The notes below the pieces were generated by a model. It was not told where the DNA came from and did not search any database. It worked only from the letters and a program-made list of their open reading frames with translations. From a virus, in IMG/VR virus record IMGVR_UViG_3300030116_001611, positions 1-29,447 of that record: a stretch of 29,447 bases of DNA. One strand, written 5' to 3'. The stretch's first letter is position 1, and each line of letters starts with the position of its first letter. Made by a program: the position numbers and the translations under genes. Below are positions 8,078 through 24,995 of this stretch, in pieces.

Positions 8078-8740
8078 TTAAAATAATTTTGTTTGTATTT
8101 TTGGCTTATAGTCTGCATTATATCTTTTGTTAGCTCCTTTAGGATAGTCTTGTATTTTCATTTTTAATGAATTAAGCATTTTTTTCTTTTGTTTTTTAGT
8201 TCCATGAAAAAATAAATATCTATATGTCCTTTTCATTTTTTCTTTTTTAACTACTTTTCCTTTAGACTCATTAAATCTATTCATGTCAAAAGTAGTCCCA
8301 TCATCAAATGTATATCTAAATTTTCCACTACTTCTTCCAGTATAGATCCAATTTGTAGCTTGGTAAATATATCCATGATGGCTTTTATTGGCATCAGCAA
8401 AGCTAACAATACATGTGGGTTTAGGTAGTTTTTTTAATGACTGACTGACAAAGTATGATAATACATTTTTTTTTAAGTTGTCATTAACACATAATCTGTT
8501 AAGCTCTAAAGTATAAACTTTATAATTATTAAAAACACAATCTCCATCATTATAATGAAAATTTGCTGACATTCCAAAAGTAATCACTCCACATAAATTT
8601 TTAAAAGCATTAAATAATCCAAAACAGTAAGATATTGATGGTAATCTTTTTAAGTAATGTTTATGTAATAGCCATTCATAAGTTTCATGCTTTTTTATTG
8701 ACTCAATAGTATAGATGTCTTTTATTGACAGTCTGGACAT
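8078..8740 (-). CDS. mom: Mom-like DNA adenine modification protein (GNAT-like fold)
   Basis: The product has 220 residues. It carries the pattern I associate with phage Mu Mom and its relatives: HYLKRLPSISYCFGLF near the start (about 28-43), GVITFGMSANF, then LELNRLCVND, and the diagnostic IVSFADANKSHHGYIYQATN followed by WIYTG (about 111-136). Mom converts adenine in phage DNA to N6-carbamoylmethyl-adenine (acetamido form), which blocks many restriction enzymes. The C-terminus is very Lys-rich (KKQKKKMLNSLKMK). The gene overlaps the zinc-ribbon gene upstream by 19 bases and is the last gene of the early block. Its chemistry in this phage is inferred. Confidence 0.8.
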   Translation of the reverse strand: MSRLSIKDIYTIESIKKHETYEWLLHKHYLKRLPSISYCFGLFNAFKNLCGVITFGMSANFHYNDGDCVFNNYKVYTLELNRLCVNDNLKKNVLSYFVSQSLKKLPKPTCIVSFADANKSHHGYIYQATNWIYTGRSSGKFRYTFDDGTTFDMNRFNESKGKVVKKEKMKRTYRYLFFHGTKKQKKKMLNSLKMKIQDYPKGANKRYNADYKPKIQTKLF

Positions 8741-8970
8741 GTTTTCTTTTTTTTCCCTATACTTGGCATGATATTATTTGAGTATTTAGTATATCTTCTT
8801 CTGCTTCTAAACTTCTCAACTTTTTCCCATAAACATTTACATTGATCACATACAAAAACATATTTATCAGTATTATCAGCTTTCCACTTTTTCTTTTTTT
8901 TTTCAAAGCTTCTATACCTCCAATGATCTTGCATTTTTAGTATATAATCAATTATATGCTCATCATCCAT
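8722..8970 (-). CDS. Small zinc-ribbon protein
   Basis: This basic 82-residue protein has two Cys pairs, FVCDQCKCLW and TCPDCQ at the extreme C-terminus, spaced about 35 residues apart as a zinc ribbon. The N-terminus is acidic (MDDEHIIDYIL) and the middle Lys/Arg-rich. Its start overlaps the stop of the replisome-organizer-like gene (TAATG type). Probably binds nucleic acid; the proximity to the Mom-like and replication genes fits that, but its exact role is unknown. Confidence 0.65.
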   Translation of the reverse strand: MDDEHIIDYILKMQDHWRYRSFEKKKKKWKADNTDKYVFVCDQCKCLWEKVEKFRSRRRYTKYSNNIMPSIGKKKKTCPDCQ

Positions 8971-9899
8971 TATTTAAGATATTTACTCAAGTGCTGTAGT
9001 CCTCTTGCTTCTGGGTTTTCCTTTTTAAATGTTTCAAAATCAACTCCACCACCTTTGTAGTCTGTTCCTTCTTCATAAGCTGTTATAACATTATTTATAG
9101 CCTTGTTTGGAGCTTTGTTTGTGTAATCAACAGCACAACAACTAGATCCCTTTTGTAAATCCCATTTAGTGCTAGGAAGTTCCCTCTTTCCACATTTACT
9201 GCAATAAGCTTTATAGTATGCTCCAGATGGTACTTTGTCAAATTTAGACTCTATTGGCTGATATGTCTTTTTTTTTACTTTCCACTCTTTATCATTTTTA
9301 AGCCATTTGGATAACCTTCTTTTAATATCAAATGTTTTCTGCATTTCAAATCTCATCTTTCTGCCATTTTCATTTGATTCAGTCCAATAGTCAATAAAAC
9401 TATCTACTTGATTTTCCCCAGCATCTAAATCTTTTCCAATTTTTAATGATTGATTTTTAAACTCTTGTTCCCTTGTTTCTTTATCTTTAACCTTAATTTT
9501 ATATTGATTTTTTTCTTTTTCTTTTTCTTTAAGGGTTATATTTTTATTTTTTAGGGTATCTATACCCTTTAACAAACCTTTTTCATCTAATCTTTTAATA
9601 ACTGATAAATGAGGTTTACTGTTTTCCTTTAACACTCCATATTGAAATTCAATAAAGCTTGGGATGTAGTATTGATCTTCTCCTTGTATATAATTCATCT
9701 TCTTTTGGATCATTTCTGGTAGGTCTTTAAATGCCACCTTTTCTCCTATAAAGAACTCTGCGGCTTCCCAGTCTGCATCCCAGATTCCAGCATGATCACA
9801 TTTAGTGAGTATATAAATCCAGAGTAGTTTGTTTTTAGTTGTTAGCTTTCTAAACCAAGCCTTATCCCATATTTTTGTGTCTATGAATCTTTTTGCCAT
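8970..9899 (-). CDS. Replisome-organizer-like replication initiation protein
   Basis: The 309-residue product begins MAKRFIDTKIWDKAWFRKL with LLWIYILTKCDHAGIWDADW, a winged-helix start typical of phage replisome organizers and DnaD/DnaT-like initiators. A low-complexity Lys/Glu-rich linker follows (about 125-150), then a helical part (FIDYWTESNENGRKMRFE, about 165-200). Near the C-terminus is a Cys cluster (AYCSKCGKREL ... SSCCAV) that could bind zinc. Proteins of this kind bind the origin and load the host helicase. A strong AAGGAGC ribosome site precedes the ATG. No helicase or loader gene follows, so host enzymes must be recruited. Confidence 0.6.
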   Translation of the reverse strand: MAKRFIDTKIWDKAWFRKLTTKNKLLWIYILTKCDHAGIWDADWEAAEFFIGEKVAFKDLPEMIQKKMNYIQGEDQYYIPSFIEFQYGVLKENSKPHLSVIKRLDEKGLLKGIDTLKNKNITLKEKEKEKNQYKIKVKDKETREQEFKNQSLKIGKDLDAGENQVDSFIDYWTESNENGRKMRFEMQKTFDIKRRLSKWLKNDKEWKVKKKTYQPIESKFDKVPSGAYYKAYCSKCGKRELPSTKWDLQKGSSCCAVDYTNKAPNKAINNVITAYEEGTDYKGGGVDFETFKKENPEARGLQHLSKYLK

Positions 9900-12653: not shown

Positions 12654-12962
12654 TTAACTCCCCATTAGTTTGTTTATTTTATTAGGATCAACAATTTCAC
12701 CTAAAAAATTATCTTTAACACTTAATATTTTAATATTAGGACAACCACCTAAGTCAATGTGCCATCCAGACTTTTTAGCATCTTGATACTGTAATAATAA
12801 TCTCCCAAGACTATCATCTATCAATACACCAAAGTCTAAATCTGGATGATCAAATTCCACTTCCATTGAAAACCTTTGAACTTTAGCACATTTATTACAC
12901 ATTTTCATGTAGGTATTATATTGTCTTTTAGTAAACTTTTTGTCACAATGTATGCAAGTCAT
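12654..12962 (-). CDS. Zinc-ribbon protein, unknown
   Basis: The product has 102 residues. The N-terminus has two Cys pairs, TCIHCDKKF and KMCNKCAKV, about 16 residues apart: a compact zinc ribbon. The rest (FDHPDLDFGVLIDDSLGRLL, GWHIDLGGCPNIKILSV) is mixed alpha/beta and unlike any family I recall. It is very close (2 bases) to the neighbouring genes. Nucleic-acid or host-protein binding is plausible. Confidence 0.65.
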   Translation of the reverse strand: MTCIHCDKKFTKRQYNTYMKMCNKCAKVQRFSMEVEFDHPDLDFGVLIDDSLGRLLLQYQDAKKSGWHIDLGGCPNIKILSVKDNFLGEIVDPNKINKLMGS

Positions 12963-12964
12963 GA

Positions 12965-13168
12965 TTATTTATTAAAATATTTTTGTTTTTCTAAAATGTA
13001 ATCTATAGTGTCATCATATTCATCTATACCAGATTTGTCATAAAGTTCCTCAATCATTCTACATAAAGAAACAGTAGTGTCTTTTATATCTTGAGCTAAA
13101 TCTTCTATTTCCCAATTAACTTTTAATTCAGCATCCTTTAGTTTTTCTAGTTTTTTATCTTTAGTCAT
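12965..13168 (-). CDS. Small acidic coiled-coil-like protein
   Basis: I place the start at the ATG 13166..13168, one base after the stop of the histone-fold-like gene and behind an AAAGG site. A longer reading to 13231 would need a poor start inside the upstream gene. The resulting 67 residues begin MTKDKKLEKLKDAELKVNWE and are strongly helical and charged (DLAQDIKDTTVSLCRMIEEL). No known motif. Confidence 0.6.
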   Translation of the reverse strand: MTKDKKLEKLKDAELKVNWEIEDLAQDIKDTTVSLCRMIEELYDKSGIDEYDDTIDYILEKQKYFNK

Positions 13169-13169
13169 T

Positions 13170-13490
13170 TTAAACCTTTTTAGATAATATTGTTGCTTTT
13201 GTATGACACCATTCTTGAGTATTTTTAGCAAATTTTAAAAACTCTGGTTTTATGTTGCAACACTTTTTACAGCTATCCTTTTGAGTAGCTTGAACTGTTT
13301 TAGTTTTTCCACCTATAACAGTATGTTGTTGCATCAAAGTTTTCATACCATCCTGCTCTACTTTTGACAACATCTTAATTACAAGATTTTCTACACTTCT
13401 ATTTATCCCATCATAAGCATTAGGGGATAATCTAAATCCCCTATCTCTGATAAGTTTTTTTATTTTACTTTTTTGAATATAATTGCTCAC
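13170..13490 (-). CDS. Histone-fold-like protein with cysteine-rich tail
   Basis: The 106-residue product starts at a GTG (13488..13490) with an upstream GGGGAAA site. Residues 6-60 align by eye with the archaeal histone fold: first helix KSKIKKLIRDRG, loop FRLSPN, middle helix about 25 residues (AYDGINRSVENLVIKMLSK), then DGMKTLMQQHT at the place of the histone 'GRKTI..ED' turn. The middle helix is about four residues shorter than in archaeal HMf, as in short histone-like bacterial and phage families I recall. A Cys cluster follows (SCKKCCNI ... WCHTK), perhaps zinc-binding. Likely role: binding or wrapping DNA early in infection. The fold is inferred from pattern only. Confidence 0.5.
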   Translation of the reverse strand: MSNYIQKSKIKKLIRDRGFRLSPNAYDGINRSVENLVIKMLSKVEQDGMKTLMQQHTVIGGKTKTVQATQKDSCKKCCNIKPEFLKFAKNTQEWCHTKATILSKKV

Positions 13491-13516: not shown

Positions 13517-13756
13517 TTAAACTAATTTAGATGCTTGTTCATAAGTGTAGTTAAAAGATTTATAATTAACTGTACACCAAGTGCATTTTTTAGTTCCATG
13601 CTGACAGTAAATGTTTTTACCATTTAACTTTTCATCTTCTTTTCTTATAGCTTTTTCTAATAAAATAATTGCTTTAGTGGCATTTGGTTTTCCTATAATA
13701 TCTGTGTAACCTTTATAAATTATTTCTCTTGCTAATTTTATTATATCATTATTCAT
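13517..13756 (-). CDS. Small Cys-containing early protein
   Basis: A 79-residue product with an N-terminal helix (DIIKLAREIIYKGYTDIIG) and a second helix (NATKAIILLEKAIRKEDEK). A cluster YCQHGTKKCTWCTVNY (Cys-x2-His ... Cys-x2-Cys) could bind zinc. Its start overlaps the stop of the first early gene and it has a GGAGC site. The family is unknown. Confidence 0.6.
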   Translation of the reverse strand: MNNDIIKLAREIIYKGYTDIIGKPNATKAIILLEKAIRKEDEKLNGKNIYCQHGTKKCTWCTVNYKSFNYTYEQASKLV

Positions 13757-14070
13757 TATTTGCTCCTTTTGTTTAATAAATATGATCTATTAATTGCATT
13801 ATAAGTTTGAGACATACCTTTATAATCTCCAAATAATTTATTATCGCTTTTGATCTCTCTTAAAATGTGATCAATATCAATTTGGGTGTACATACCCTCT
13901 TCTTGACCAATCCATTCAAATTTAACAATATTTTTAATCTTCTTTTTTAGTTGTGGTACAAGTAGGGTTTTATAATCATACCAACTCATTCTATTAACAC
14001 CCATTGAGTAATATAGATGAATTAATATAAATTCTTCTATTACATTATAAGTGTATGTTTGTTTTTTCAT
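13756..14070 (-). CDS. First gene of the early operon, unknown
   Basis: The 104-residue basic product begins MKKQTYTYNVIEEFILIHLY and contains WYDYKTLLVPQLKKKIKNIV and DHILREIKSDNKLFGDYKG. It has no metal-binding motif; a helical DNA- or protein-binding role is possible. An AGGAG site (14077..14081) lies six bases before the ATG, and the main early promoter candidate lies about 40 bases upstream. It should be the first phage protein made after infection. I do not recognise it. Confidence 0.65.
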   Translation of the reverse strand: MKKQTYTYNVIEEFILIHLYYSMGVNRMSWYDYKTLLVPQLKKKIKNIVKFEWIGQEEGMYTQIDIDHILREIKSDNKLFGDYKGMSQTYNAINRSYLLNKRSK

Positions 14071-14286: not shown

Positions 14287-15321
14287 TCAAAACTCCTCAA
14301 TAATTTTCATATTAACTGAAAAGGTATCAAATGCAACTTGTCTCATAGATAGAGAATTTTGATTAAATCTAGCAAAAATATGCTCTGACTCTGCCCCATC
14401 TCCAGCAGAGCTGTTATCAATGCTAAAAATAAATGGTAGTCCATTCCCATTAGTCATGTTCCAGACATCTTCAACAACTGCATCATCAGCTAACTGATTT
14501 GATGTGTATTCATCTGGCATGACATCTGTAGAAGCTAAATGGCTAAATGACATATCATAAGAAATTCTGCCTCCATAAATGTTCTGAGGATTAGATGAGA
14601 TTGAAAACGGAGATTTAGATGTTGAACTTGCTAATCTTCCAAAATTAGTAATATTAGAATATTTTTGACCTCCTAAACTTTCATTTATTTTAACACCATC
14701 AAAAGTAATTGATCTGGTAACTGCTAAGTCTGGACTCACTGGCATATCATAAAACTGACCTATCATAATGCACCCAATAGATAGATCTGTTGATGTAAAT
14801 GTTCCATCACTTCCCTCAAATTGTAATCCAAAAAACTGCTCACTATTTTCTGTAAATGTTATAATAGTTGATCCATTTGTAGCTGGAGTAACCAGAAAAG
14901 GATCTGATCCAGTTATAGTATCTGCATTAACAACTTCTGTTCCTTGTATTTCAGTTGCACTAGCATCATGATCTATCACATTTATTCTGTTTTCATTAGC
15001 CGATGAAGCTAACCTAAATGATGCTCCTGCACTTACCATGTTATGATTTAAAATAGCTAAAAAACTATATTTTTTACTTGAGTCCCCTTTATCAATTATA
15101 ACTGCAACATGCCCATCAGTATCAGCACTTGTGTCAAAAGTAACTAAATTTAAAGGGTTCATATCAAACAACTCTGCTTCTGATCCAGTCACAAAAGTTC
15201 CCATAAATCCAGATCCAGTTGCCATTACATCAAAATTTCCATCTTGTGCAACTCCTCTTGATAATCTGTAGCTAATATCATCCACATAAAATCTAGGGGT
15301 TCTTATATTCATATTTGCCAT
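14287..15321 (-). CDS. Tail structural protein, last gene of the late operon
   Basis: The 344-residue product begins MANMNIRTPRFYVDDISYRL, a start I associate with tail-tip proteins of marine phages. The whole sequence is beta-rich with many Ser, Thr, Asp and Asn (FLAILNHNMVSAGASFRLAS, SRSITFD-type strands) and no cysteine pairs. It contains FFGLQFEGSD and a C-terminal part NSLSMRQVAFDTFSVNMKII. It follows the 759-residue tail protein by 9 bases. Likely a tail-tip or fibre-attachment component; exact role unknown. Confidence 0.7.
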   Translation of the reverse strand: MANMNIRTPRFYVDDISYRLSRGVAQDGNFDVMATGSGFMGTFVTGSEAELFDMNPLNLVTFDTSADTDGHVAVIIDKGDSSKKYSFLAILNHNMVSAGASFRLASSANENRINVIDHDASATEIQGTEVVNADTITGSDPFLVTPATNGSTIITFTENSEQFFGLQFEGSDGTFTSTDLSIGCIMIGQFYDMPVSPDLAVTRSITFDGVKINESLGGQKYSNITNFGRLASSTSKSPFSISSNPQNIYGGRISYDMSFSHLASTDVMPDEYTSNQLADDAVVEDVWNMTNGNGLPFIFSIDNSSAGDGAESEHIFARFNQNSLSMRQVAFDTFSVNMKIIEEF

Positions 15322-22470: not shown

Positions 22471-22688
22471 GCTTCTGCCTCTGGTCTTATAGGGTTTTCA
22501 ATTATTTCTATTTCTATCGTTTTAATTTTTTCTATTAATTCTAATAACAATTCTTTTTCCTCATAACACTGATTGTCTATAATAATATTTGTAATGTCAA
22601 GATGCTCTGCAATTTGTTTACATCTTAATATTATATCAAAAGCATTATAATCAGATTCTAATTTTTCTATATTTGAGATCTTTTCCAT
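22467..22688 (-). CDS. Small acidic helical protein, unknown
   Basis: The product of 73 residues is acidic and helical (MEKISNIEKLESDYNAFDII, ELLLELIEKIKTIEIEIIEN). Its start overlaps the metallophosphoesterase gene by 22 bases and its stop overlaps the adaptor start. It has no recognisable motif beyond heptad-like leucines; a connector or assembly cofactor is possible. Confidence 0.6.
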   Translation of the reverse strand: MEKISNIEKLESDYNAFDIILRCKQIAEHLDITNIIIDNQCYEEKELLLELIEKIKTIEIEIIENPIRPEAEA

Positions 22689-23725
22689 TTTAAATATTCT
22701 GCTCCCTCATAAGGGTCAAAAATTGTTGTAATTAATCTATTATCATCATCCTCATATCTTGGGTCAATTATAGTTACTGGACAATTAAAAATGTTTTTGT
22801 CATCTAATCCATTTTTATTAGCATACTCATCCATCCTTTTAAATGAACCCACTTGGATTGCATGAGAAATTAAGCCAGAACTGGGATCTTTTAAAACTTG
22901 ATAACCAGAAACATGTATATGACCAGCAGTTAATATATGATCCCTCCACCCCATCTGGACTGCTCTACTAACTGCATGAGCTGTGTTCCACATTGAATGA
23001 CCTTTAAATTGGTGTCTGGCATTTATCCTTACTTGTCTTTTATTAGGGAATTTTAGGTTAATTCTACAGCCATGATTACTATAAACTGTTTCACTATTTC
23101 TTATAATAAACTCAAGTGGATCTCCATCTCCAGACCAGACATCATGATTTCCACCCACTAAATAAAGCCACTCTAAGGATTTAACAAAATGCTCTGATAA
23201 CATCCATGACTCTTTAGCTGTTGTTGTTTGATTAGCATATAATCTGGCTAGTCTACCTATCCAGTTATTTTGGATGTCTCCTAAGTTACCAGCAAACATT
23301 CCTTCTGTTTTATTAATCAATTTAGTTAGTCCAAATATTTCAGATAAATCAGTTCCATCATCATCAACATGGGGATCACCAAAATGAGCAATTCCAATCG
23401 GCCCATTAATATTGATATTTATATTTACTAGCTTTTCATAAAAATCTCTTTTCTGTTTTACCTTAAATTTTTTAATTCTGTATTTAATTAAATCATCAAT
23501 ATCCATTTCTTTATTTGGTGGATATTTTTCTTGATTGAAATCTTTATTAAAAATTATGTTTGTTCTTGTGCTTCTTCTTTTGCAGTTTAAACAGAAATAT
23601 CTTTGTTTTTTATGTTGTGTTTTTCCATCTCTATGAATTTTTACAGAATTACAATAAAAGCAACTTACTACATTCTTATCAGAATCATATATTAAAGAGC
23701 CTTTTTCTTTCTGTTCTACTTGCAT
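22667..23725 (-). CDS. Zinc-ribbon / calcineurin-like metallophosphoesterase fusion
   Basis: The protein has 352 residues. Residues 22-48 form a zinc ribbon: CFYC, then QRYFCLNCKRRS, as in InsA-type transposase fingers ('QRY.C..C'). From about 112 to 330 the metallophosphoesterase motifs follow in order: HFGDPHVDDDG (Asp117, His119), GNLGDIQN, VGGNHDVW and AGHIHVSG, which hold two metals. The enzyme could act on nucleic acid or nucleotides, and the ribbon suggests DNA binding. It sits between lysin and tail-connector genes, not among replication genes, so the role is unclear. It is complete. Confidence 0.85.
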   Translation of the reverse strand: MQVEQKEKGSLIYDSDKNVVSCFYCNSVKIHRDGKTQHKKQRYFCLNCKRRSTRTNIIFNKDFNQEKYPPNKEMDIDDLIKYRIKKFKVKQKRDFYEKLVNINININGPIGIAHFGDPHVDDDGTDLSEIFGLTKLINKTEGMFAGNLGDIQNNWIGRLARLYANQTTTAKESWMLSEHFVKSLEWLYLVGGNHDVWSGDGDPLEFIIRNSETVYSNHGCRINLKFPNKRQVRINARHQFKGHSMWNTAHAVSRAVQMGWRDHILTAGHIHVSGYQVLKDPSSGLISHAIQVGSFKRMDEYANKNGLDDKNIFNCPVTIIDPRYEDDDNRLITTIFDPYEGAEYLKWKRSQI

Positions 23726-24189: not shown

Positions 24190-24275
24190 TACTTCTTTTT
24201 TCTTCTCATCATTTTATTTTTTTTCTTTTTAGGTCTACCAACCTTACTTCCATAAGTTCCTTTTCCTTGTGGCAT
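24189..24275 (-). CDS. 28-residue Lys/Arg-rich peptide
   Basis: ATG at 24273..24275 gives 28 codons: MPQGKGTYGSKVGRP followed by a Lys/Arg tail. The start overlaps the upstream stop (TAATG) and the stop overlaps the lysin start. I recall similar 'GKGTYG..VGRP' peptides, always near lysis and basic genes, in marine phages. It is very basic and probably binds nucleic acid or another acidic partner. The function is unknown. Confidence 0.65.
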   Translation of the reverse strand: MPQGKGTYGSKVGRPKKKKNKMMRRKKK

Positions 24276-24523
24276 TATCTAGCTCTCCTTACTTTTTTTC
24301 TTGTTGATTTACTATACTTAGCAAACTGTTTTCCAGCTTTACTAGCTTTTCTCTTTTTCCTATTTTCATAAGCTTTTTGACTTGGGGTCAAAGATTTTCT
24401 AACACTAGCTGGGAGATATCTACCCCTTTTTCTTCTAGGTTTTTTCTTGTCTCCCTTAGAAATATAATCCCATTTTTGATCAGTCCATCTTTTTAAACTT
24501 CTTTGAGACTTTTTTAAAGCCAT
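24275..24523 (-). CDS. Small very basic protein of a recurrent marine-phage family
   Basis: The 82-residue product begins MALKKSQRSLKRWTDQKWDY and contains GRYLPASVRKSLTPSQKAYE. Roughly a third of residues are Lys or Arg. The pattern 'W..Q.W' plus 'RYLP' recurs in marine phage and large-virus sequences I recall. No enzymatic motif is seen. It is coupled to its neighbours on both sides by one-to-four-base overlaps. Confidence 0.7.
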   Translation of the reverse strand: MALKKSQRSLKRWTDQKWDYISKGDKKKPRRKRGRYLPASVRKSLTPSQKAYENRKKRKASKAGKQFAKYSKSTRKKVRRAR

Positions 24524-24717
24524 TATTTATAGCCTCCACCCCTTTTTTTATATTCTCTTGCTAACATCTGAGCCTTACGCCCGCTCCACTGCCCAGCTCT
24601 TCCACCTTTTGACCCTGCTTTTATTTTATAAAAAAGTCTTTTTCTCATAGTTGGTTTTGTATAATTACCAGCTTTATTGACTGTTGATTTTCTTCTTTTT
24701 TTTCTTCTTGCTACCAT
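24523..24717 (-). CDS. Small basic protein of a recurrent marine-phage family
   Basis: A 64-residue product (MVARRKKRRKSTVNKAGNYT, then KPTMRKRLF, GQWSGRKAQMLAREYKKRG). The 'NKAGNYTKP.MRKR.F' and 'GQWS.RKAQ.LA' pattern is one I know from a widespread phage family (possibly DUF5872; number not certain). It overlaps the upstream gene by seven bases. Probable nucleic-acid-binding or virion-packaged protein; role unknown. Confidence 0.7.
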   Translation of the reverse strand: MVARRKKRRKSTVNKAGNYTKPTMRKRLFYKIKAGSKGGRAGQWSGRKAQMLAREYKKRGGGYK

Positions 24718-24995
24718 TTTACTTTATTTGCCCAATAAGCCGCACTTAAACGACCTTTTGCTATGTTTTTGGCATGTCTAGCCTTAAAAGATTTTCTTTT
24801 TGCTTTCATCCTTGCTGACTCTCCTTTTTTAGGTTTTCCAGCAGTTCTCGCTCCTTGTTGCCCAAATCTAATTAATTTAATCGTTGATCCAGATTTTGCC
24901 AAAACCACATGACTTTTAGTTTTATGTCTTGGAGTTCTTTTTGGTTTGTTAAATCCTTTTAATCCAAATCTTTTTAATCTAGGATCTCTAGCCAC
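24711..24995 (-). CDS. DUF6321-like basic protein
   Basis: The 94-residue product starts at GTG 24993..24995, one base overlapping the stop of the upstream gene. Its sequence MARDPRLKRFGLKGFNKPKR, then THKTKSHVVLA-like strands, KLIRFGQQGA and KSFKARHAKNIAKGRLSAAY, matches my memory of the DUF6321 family, common in marine phages. It is strongly basic with a conserved-type end (WANKVKW). Function is unknown; DNA binding is plausible. Confidence 0.75.
   Translation of the reverse strand: MARDPRLKRFGLKGFNKPKRTPRHKTKSHVVLAKSGSTIKLIRFGQQGARTAGKPKKGESARMKAKRKSFKARHAKNIAKGRLSAAYWANKVKW

Follow-up and report, generated by a model that had tools for sequence, protein, structure and literature searches.

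A small tailed phage encodes a putative member of the phage histone class with a predicted alpha3-type fold

Does a small phage encode a genuine histone and, if so, how might the protein act during infection? This question is raised by a gene for a 106-amino-acid protein on the minus strand (13170..13490) of a 29,447-nucleotide viral sequence, the whole of which is referred to here as the window. The gene has a GTG start at 13490 preceded by a ribosome-binding-like AAGGGG, and its stop codon ends at 13170. Since the ATG starts of its relatives lie at the same or a neighboring place, a start further upstream is unlikely. The window also carries the terminase, capsid, tape-measure, and tail genes of a tailed double-stranded DNA phage. 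The source of the gene is a small marine-type phage, and its capsid distantly resembles pelagiphage capsids (30-32%), a level insufficient to fix the host.

A preliminary description had aligned three segments of the protein (LIRDRG, RLSPNA, and GMKTL) by eye with the archaeal histone HMf and proposed a histone fold. These segments are present and align with histones: when the single protein was searched against the PDB with phmmer, the top three matches were HTkC (9f2c, 3.5e-5) and two to HBb (5.3e-5 and 5.9e-5), with HLp also matched (0.0056). In contrast, the reversed sequence matched no histone in the PDB, its best match (0.023) being to unrelated ATPases. The significant scores, set against this negative control, indicate that the by-eye alignment was correct far beyond chance. 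A profile of the 31-sequence family described below matched the same proteins (HTkC 7.8e-9, HBb 2.9e-6, HLp 9.5e-5). The closest kin, however, are alpha3 histones (the archaeal HTkC and the bacterial HBb and HLp) rather than HMf-type nucleosomal histones. Consistent with a common but diverged fold, PF00808, the family of nucleosomal archaeal histones, gave a weak match of 12.6 bits, below the Pfam cut-off of 21.4, and scans of Pfam, PHROGs, and NCBIfam returned no family above threshold for the phage histone.

Iterative scans of IMG/VR recovered 31 further phage contigs, with exactly one histone copy per contig; many of the 32 contigs are fragments. Because the proteins of two records (L009 and L010) are identical, the resulting alignment (A5) has 31 rows. 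No relative was detected by tblastn in GenBank phages or PLSDB plasmids, nor in the genomes of ~85,000 species, which were scanned twice. BFVD yielded two full-length viral relatives, A0A516LIY4 (53% identity) and A0A516M1G1 (39% identity), which are public members of this family with no name or annotation in the tables consulted. The dN/dS ratio was 0.08-0.26 between the window gene and its four nearest relatives and 0.03-0.26 in pairwise comparisons across the family where it was computable, indicating that the gene is under purifying selection.

AF2 modeling from 5 sequences was poor (pLDDT 49), and this was remedied by the 31-row alignment, which gave an overall pLDDT of 80, with values of 86-94 for most residues of the histone domain. 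In model numbering, to which 1 is added to count from Met1, helices span residues 6-15 and 24-45, a short third helix lies near 53-59, the linker at 59-75 is uncertain, and a C-terminal helix covers 81-104. Counted from Met1, the histone part comprises alpha1 (7-16), alpha2 (25-46), loop L2 with the sequence DGMKT (47-51), and a short alpha3; from the model and the alignment, the histone-fold domain extends over residues ~2-57, or up to ~60 (13320..13487, minus strand). The best nine Foldseek matches were all alpha3 histones, with modest E-values (1.3e-3) that are attributable to the shortness of the domain. VIA-align gave a gapless superposition of model residues 1-56 on residues 8-63 of HLp (9qt0), with 56 residues aligned at 0.9 A and a Z score of 8.4, compared with Z scores of 7.8-8.1 for other alpha3 histones and <6 for nucleosomal histones. 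Structure prediction had been proposed in the preliminary description as one test of the fold; the helices did not come out in the wrong order, no unrelated family matched with confidence, and the shorter middle helix that it had noted recurs in the model. Taken together, the homology searches and the modeling confirm the N-terminal part of the protein as a true alpha3-type histone fold.

Phage histones were first described computationally in 2024 as a minor alpha3 class, with A0A2E7QIQ9 as representative (Schwab et al., Nat Commun 15:7950; PMC11390915), and were listed again in PMC12701072; the main text of neither paper gives experiments on them. The class is known from one computational survey, and a full-text search of open-licence papers found no further paper on phage histones and no DNA-binding or oligomer data for any of them. 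According to the main text of the survey, its members have an N-terminal alpha3 fold, a C-terminal alpha helix, and no RxTxxxD motif, and derive from tailed phages in metagenomes, all of which also holds here. Their lysines K10 and K49, 39 residues apart, have a counterpart in the pair K11 and K50 of the window protein. Both R31 (31/31 rows) and R20 (29/31) are conserved as well, and either may be the arginine that the survey intends.

The residues of HLp that touch DNA are A13, S14, K15, K17, K21, T56, and T57 (PMC12701072). Transferred through the gapless superposition, they correspond to K7 (31/31), S8 (28/31), K9 (20/31), K11 (lysine in 28 rows and arginine in 3), R15 (arginine or lysine in 21/31), K50 (31/31), and T51 (31/31). 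HLp, an FtF histone of Leptospira perolatii (PDB 9QT0/9QT1), therefore shares with the window protein the histone fold and the contact positions in alpha1 and L2. It differs, however, in its dimer-dimer interface, where R49 and N53 are replaced by K43 (K, N, Q, or R across the family) and D47 (31/31) so that the R/N contact pair is absent, and in its R55-D62 clamp, which is replaced by M49 and H56 (both 31/31). HLp also lacks a C-terminal helix, as does HTkC, the FtF histone of Thermococcus kodakarensis (PDB 9F2C), which is the best match to the family profile and a 59-residue histone without any C-terminal extension. The bacterial dimer histone HBb of Bdellovibrio bacteriovorus (PDB 8CMP/8FVX) resembles the window protein in its histone fold and alpha1 lysines (~32% identity), but it is a DNA-bending dimer without a C-terminal helix, and its RKTxxxD motif is MKT...H in 31/31 rows. 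Since D47, M49, and H56 are invariant, the replacement of the interface and clamp residues is a trait of the family, and these replacements exclude the FtF and bacterial-dimer classes while matching the phage-histone class of Schwab et al. The N-terminal ZZ zinc-finger domain of ZZ histones is likewise absent, with the histone fold starting at the N-terminus and the cysteine motif lying C-terminal to it. On sequence and modeling evidence, and as the class is defined in the main text of PMC11390915, the window protein is a new member of the phage histones.

Beyond the histone part, the AF2 model has a C-terminal helix at residues ~82-105 (13173..13250, minus strand). A single face of it is conserved (F84, A88, Q92, C95, and A99), and its conservation periodicity at 98 degrees exceeded that of all 5000 shuffles, while hydrophobicity alone showed no significant periodicity in this helix (p 0.15). 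One-faced conservation fits helix-helix packing and hence the predicted tetramer, so this is likely an oligomerization face, although it could bind a partner protein instead.

The cysteine cluster that the preliminary description had placed at the end of the protein is real and consists of C74, C77, C78, and C95. The first three form a CxxCC motif (13254..13273, minus strand) that precedes the helix and lies either within the low-confidence linker or immediately after it. CxxC occurs in 28/31 rows and is missing from L065, L041, and L040; C95, on the helix face, is kept in 25 rows, and the remaining rows have F, T, or A instead. Since CxxC is found without C95 in 6 rows and C95 without CxxC in 3 rows, the two vary independently, which makes one metal site using both unlikely, and a single zinc site formed by C74, C77, C95, and H96 was set aside for this reason. 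CxxC alone, contributed by two chains, could bind metal.

The C-terminal parts are much more diverged across the family than the histone part. Four members (L015, L019, L020, and L021) are long forms whose extended C-terminus closes with the conserved segment KYDP..AT..GR.NNF. Compared with a short-form relative, three of these show 86-91% identity over the histone part but just 20-36% over the C-terminal part. This combination suggests that the C-terminal part has been exchanged; the tree of the histone part, with 57 columns, is too short to place the type-B members or to count such exchanges.

In the window, as in its closest relatives, the histone gene comes after the tail genes (those for the tape measure and for proteins of 759 and 344 amino acids) and opens a same-strand block of small and replication-like genes. 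The 344-amino-acid protein belongs to a conserved tail-module family (cluster 1; 14287..15321, minus strand; weak match to phrog_8610) whose gene is the fixed upstream neighbor of the locus in most relatives. A 216-bp gap divides the tail genes from the histone block, and the first gene past it encodes 104 amino acids (13756..14070, minus strand; no confident family), followed directly upstream of the histone gene by a 79-amino-acid open reading frame with no family assigned (13517..13756, minus strand). Downstream lie two short reading frames of ~67 (if started at the ATG at 13168) and 102 amino acids (12654..13168, minus strand; cluster 17), which are conserved neighbors in the nearest relatives. 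The early block to which the gene had been assigned thus stands as a position, and early expression in the window is plausible on this ground. In L012, L013, L018, L019, L020, and L060 the histone gene is on the strand opposite to both flanking modules and so is transcribed separately from them.

In three relatives, an integrase gene is found close to the histone gene, at a distance of 1-2 genes. In L060, a diverged tyrosine integrase (8703-9860) lies directly downstream, and small HTH-looking reading frames, repressor- or excisionase-like by eye, lie on the other side in a temperate arrangement; in L022 and L053, the integrase gene is likewise downstream, within a few genes of the histone gene. 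Besides the diverged integrase of L060, 2 of the 32 records have a Pfam integrase domain, and the window is not among these three. These neighbors indicate that some histone-carrying phages are probably temperate, consistent with the prophage possibility raised in PMC11390915. A general role in integration was set aside since an integrase occurs in only 3/32 records.

How, then, might such a protein act? We favor, as a reading with somewhat better than even prospects, a DNA-bridging alpha3 phage histone. Its fold implies that two chains would pair by the histone handshake, and the dimer would bind DNA irrespective of its sequence, using the beginning of alpha1 (K7-S8-K9, K11, and R15) and loop L2 (K50-T51), the places at which HLp contacts DNA. 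The conserved face of the C-terminal helix, which is carried on a flexible linker, would then bring dimers together as tetramers and thereby bridge two segments of DNA; Schwab et al. (PMC11390915) likewise predicted a tetramer formed at the C-terminus, with possible bridging of DNA. Phage, or possibly host, DNA would thereby be organized or bent during replication and transcription rather than inside the capsid. The net charge of the window protein is +14, but several relatives have a low net charge (L041 +2, L065 +3), which counts against this reading. In an improbable elaboration, two CxxC motifs would hold one zinc per chain pair, much as a zinc hook does, and make the bridges metal- or redox-switched, with L065, L041, and L040 constitutive and the C-terminal part serving as an exchangeable module that chooses the DNA or partner.

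The main rival to bridging is DNA bending by a dimer, in the way of HBb or HU/IHF; the protein would then have an architectural role in phage replication or site-specific recombination, and its C-terminal helix would bind a phage protein rather than a second histone dimer. HBb is close in both sequence and fold and bends DNA as a dimer (PMC12701072; PMC11317129), and the integrases a few genes downstream in L060, L022, and L053 are compatible with such a role. We nevertheless consider bending unlikely, since integrases were found in those few records only, many of the contigs being fragments, and one-faced conservation of the C-terminal helix fits self-assembly at least equally well. It is more doubtful still that the histone regulates or inhibits a host function (the nucleoid, RNA polymerase, or a defence protein) instead of organizing phage DNA. 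An accessory-like place at the tail/early junction, with the gene on the opposite strand in the relatives listed above, and diverged or exchanged C-terminal parts would suit a host target, but conservation in the protein is highest at the DNA-contact positions, so DNA binding is probably retained.

As a basic histone-fold protein of a double-stranded DNA virus, it might also condense packaged DNA in the virion, like the histones of giant viruses. In tailed phages a motor packs the DNA and histones take no part, the gene lies outside the head and packaging module, and far more basic small proteins are encoded elsewhere in the window (24275-24995, +22 to +29), all of which makes a virion role very unlikely. 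Least probable of all is a zinc-dependent nucleic-acid binder composed of a zinc finger and helix, with the histone part merely a dimerization scaffold. Although CxxC is widespread in the family and one member weakly matches a Pfam zinc-binding model (0.0083), this explanation has to contend with the independent loss of CxxC and C95, the position of C95 on the helix packing face and its exchange for F, T, or A, and the retention of the histone DNA-contact residues.

To the phage-histone class, the present analysis contributes sequences from 32 phage records, together with their locus context, the conserved contact positions, and the cysteine motif. In the main text of PMC11390915, no mention was found of CxxC(C), of the variable tail, or of the locus context, including the gene's conserved place at the tail/early-gene junction and the nearby integrase of three relatives. 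The set allows DNA binding and bridging to be tested directly, and a histone in bacterial viruses bears on the spread of histones between domains and on the question of whether DNA is chromatinized by phages during infection.

Several other proteins of the window deserve mention. A Mom-like DNA modification protein (8078-8740, minus strand; phrog_1384, 1e-50) is also encoded by G004, in two adjacent copies, and by G011; being present in 3/32 records, the modifier shows no association with the histone, and a link between them was set aside. The basic proteins at 24275-24995 (minus strand) are three adjacent small products of 82, 64, and 94 amino acids, with net charges of +29, +22, and +28. They match PHROGs 14910, 17747, and 7595, to which no function is assigned, and might serve to condense DNA as virion or ejection proteins; the 82-amino-acid protein occurs in 6/32 histone-phage records, including the window. 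Finally, a DNA repair exonuclease-like protein (22667-23725, minus strand; phrog_7339, 3.8e-44) carries an N-terminal InsA-type zinc ribbon (Pfam 0.0015, under the curated cut-off), an unusual fusion.
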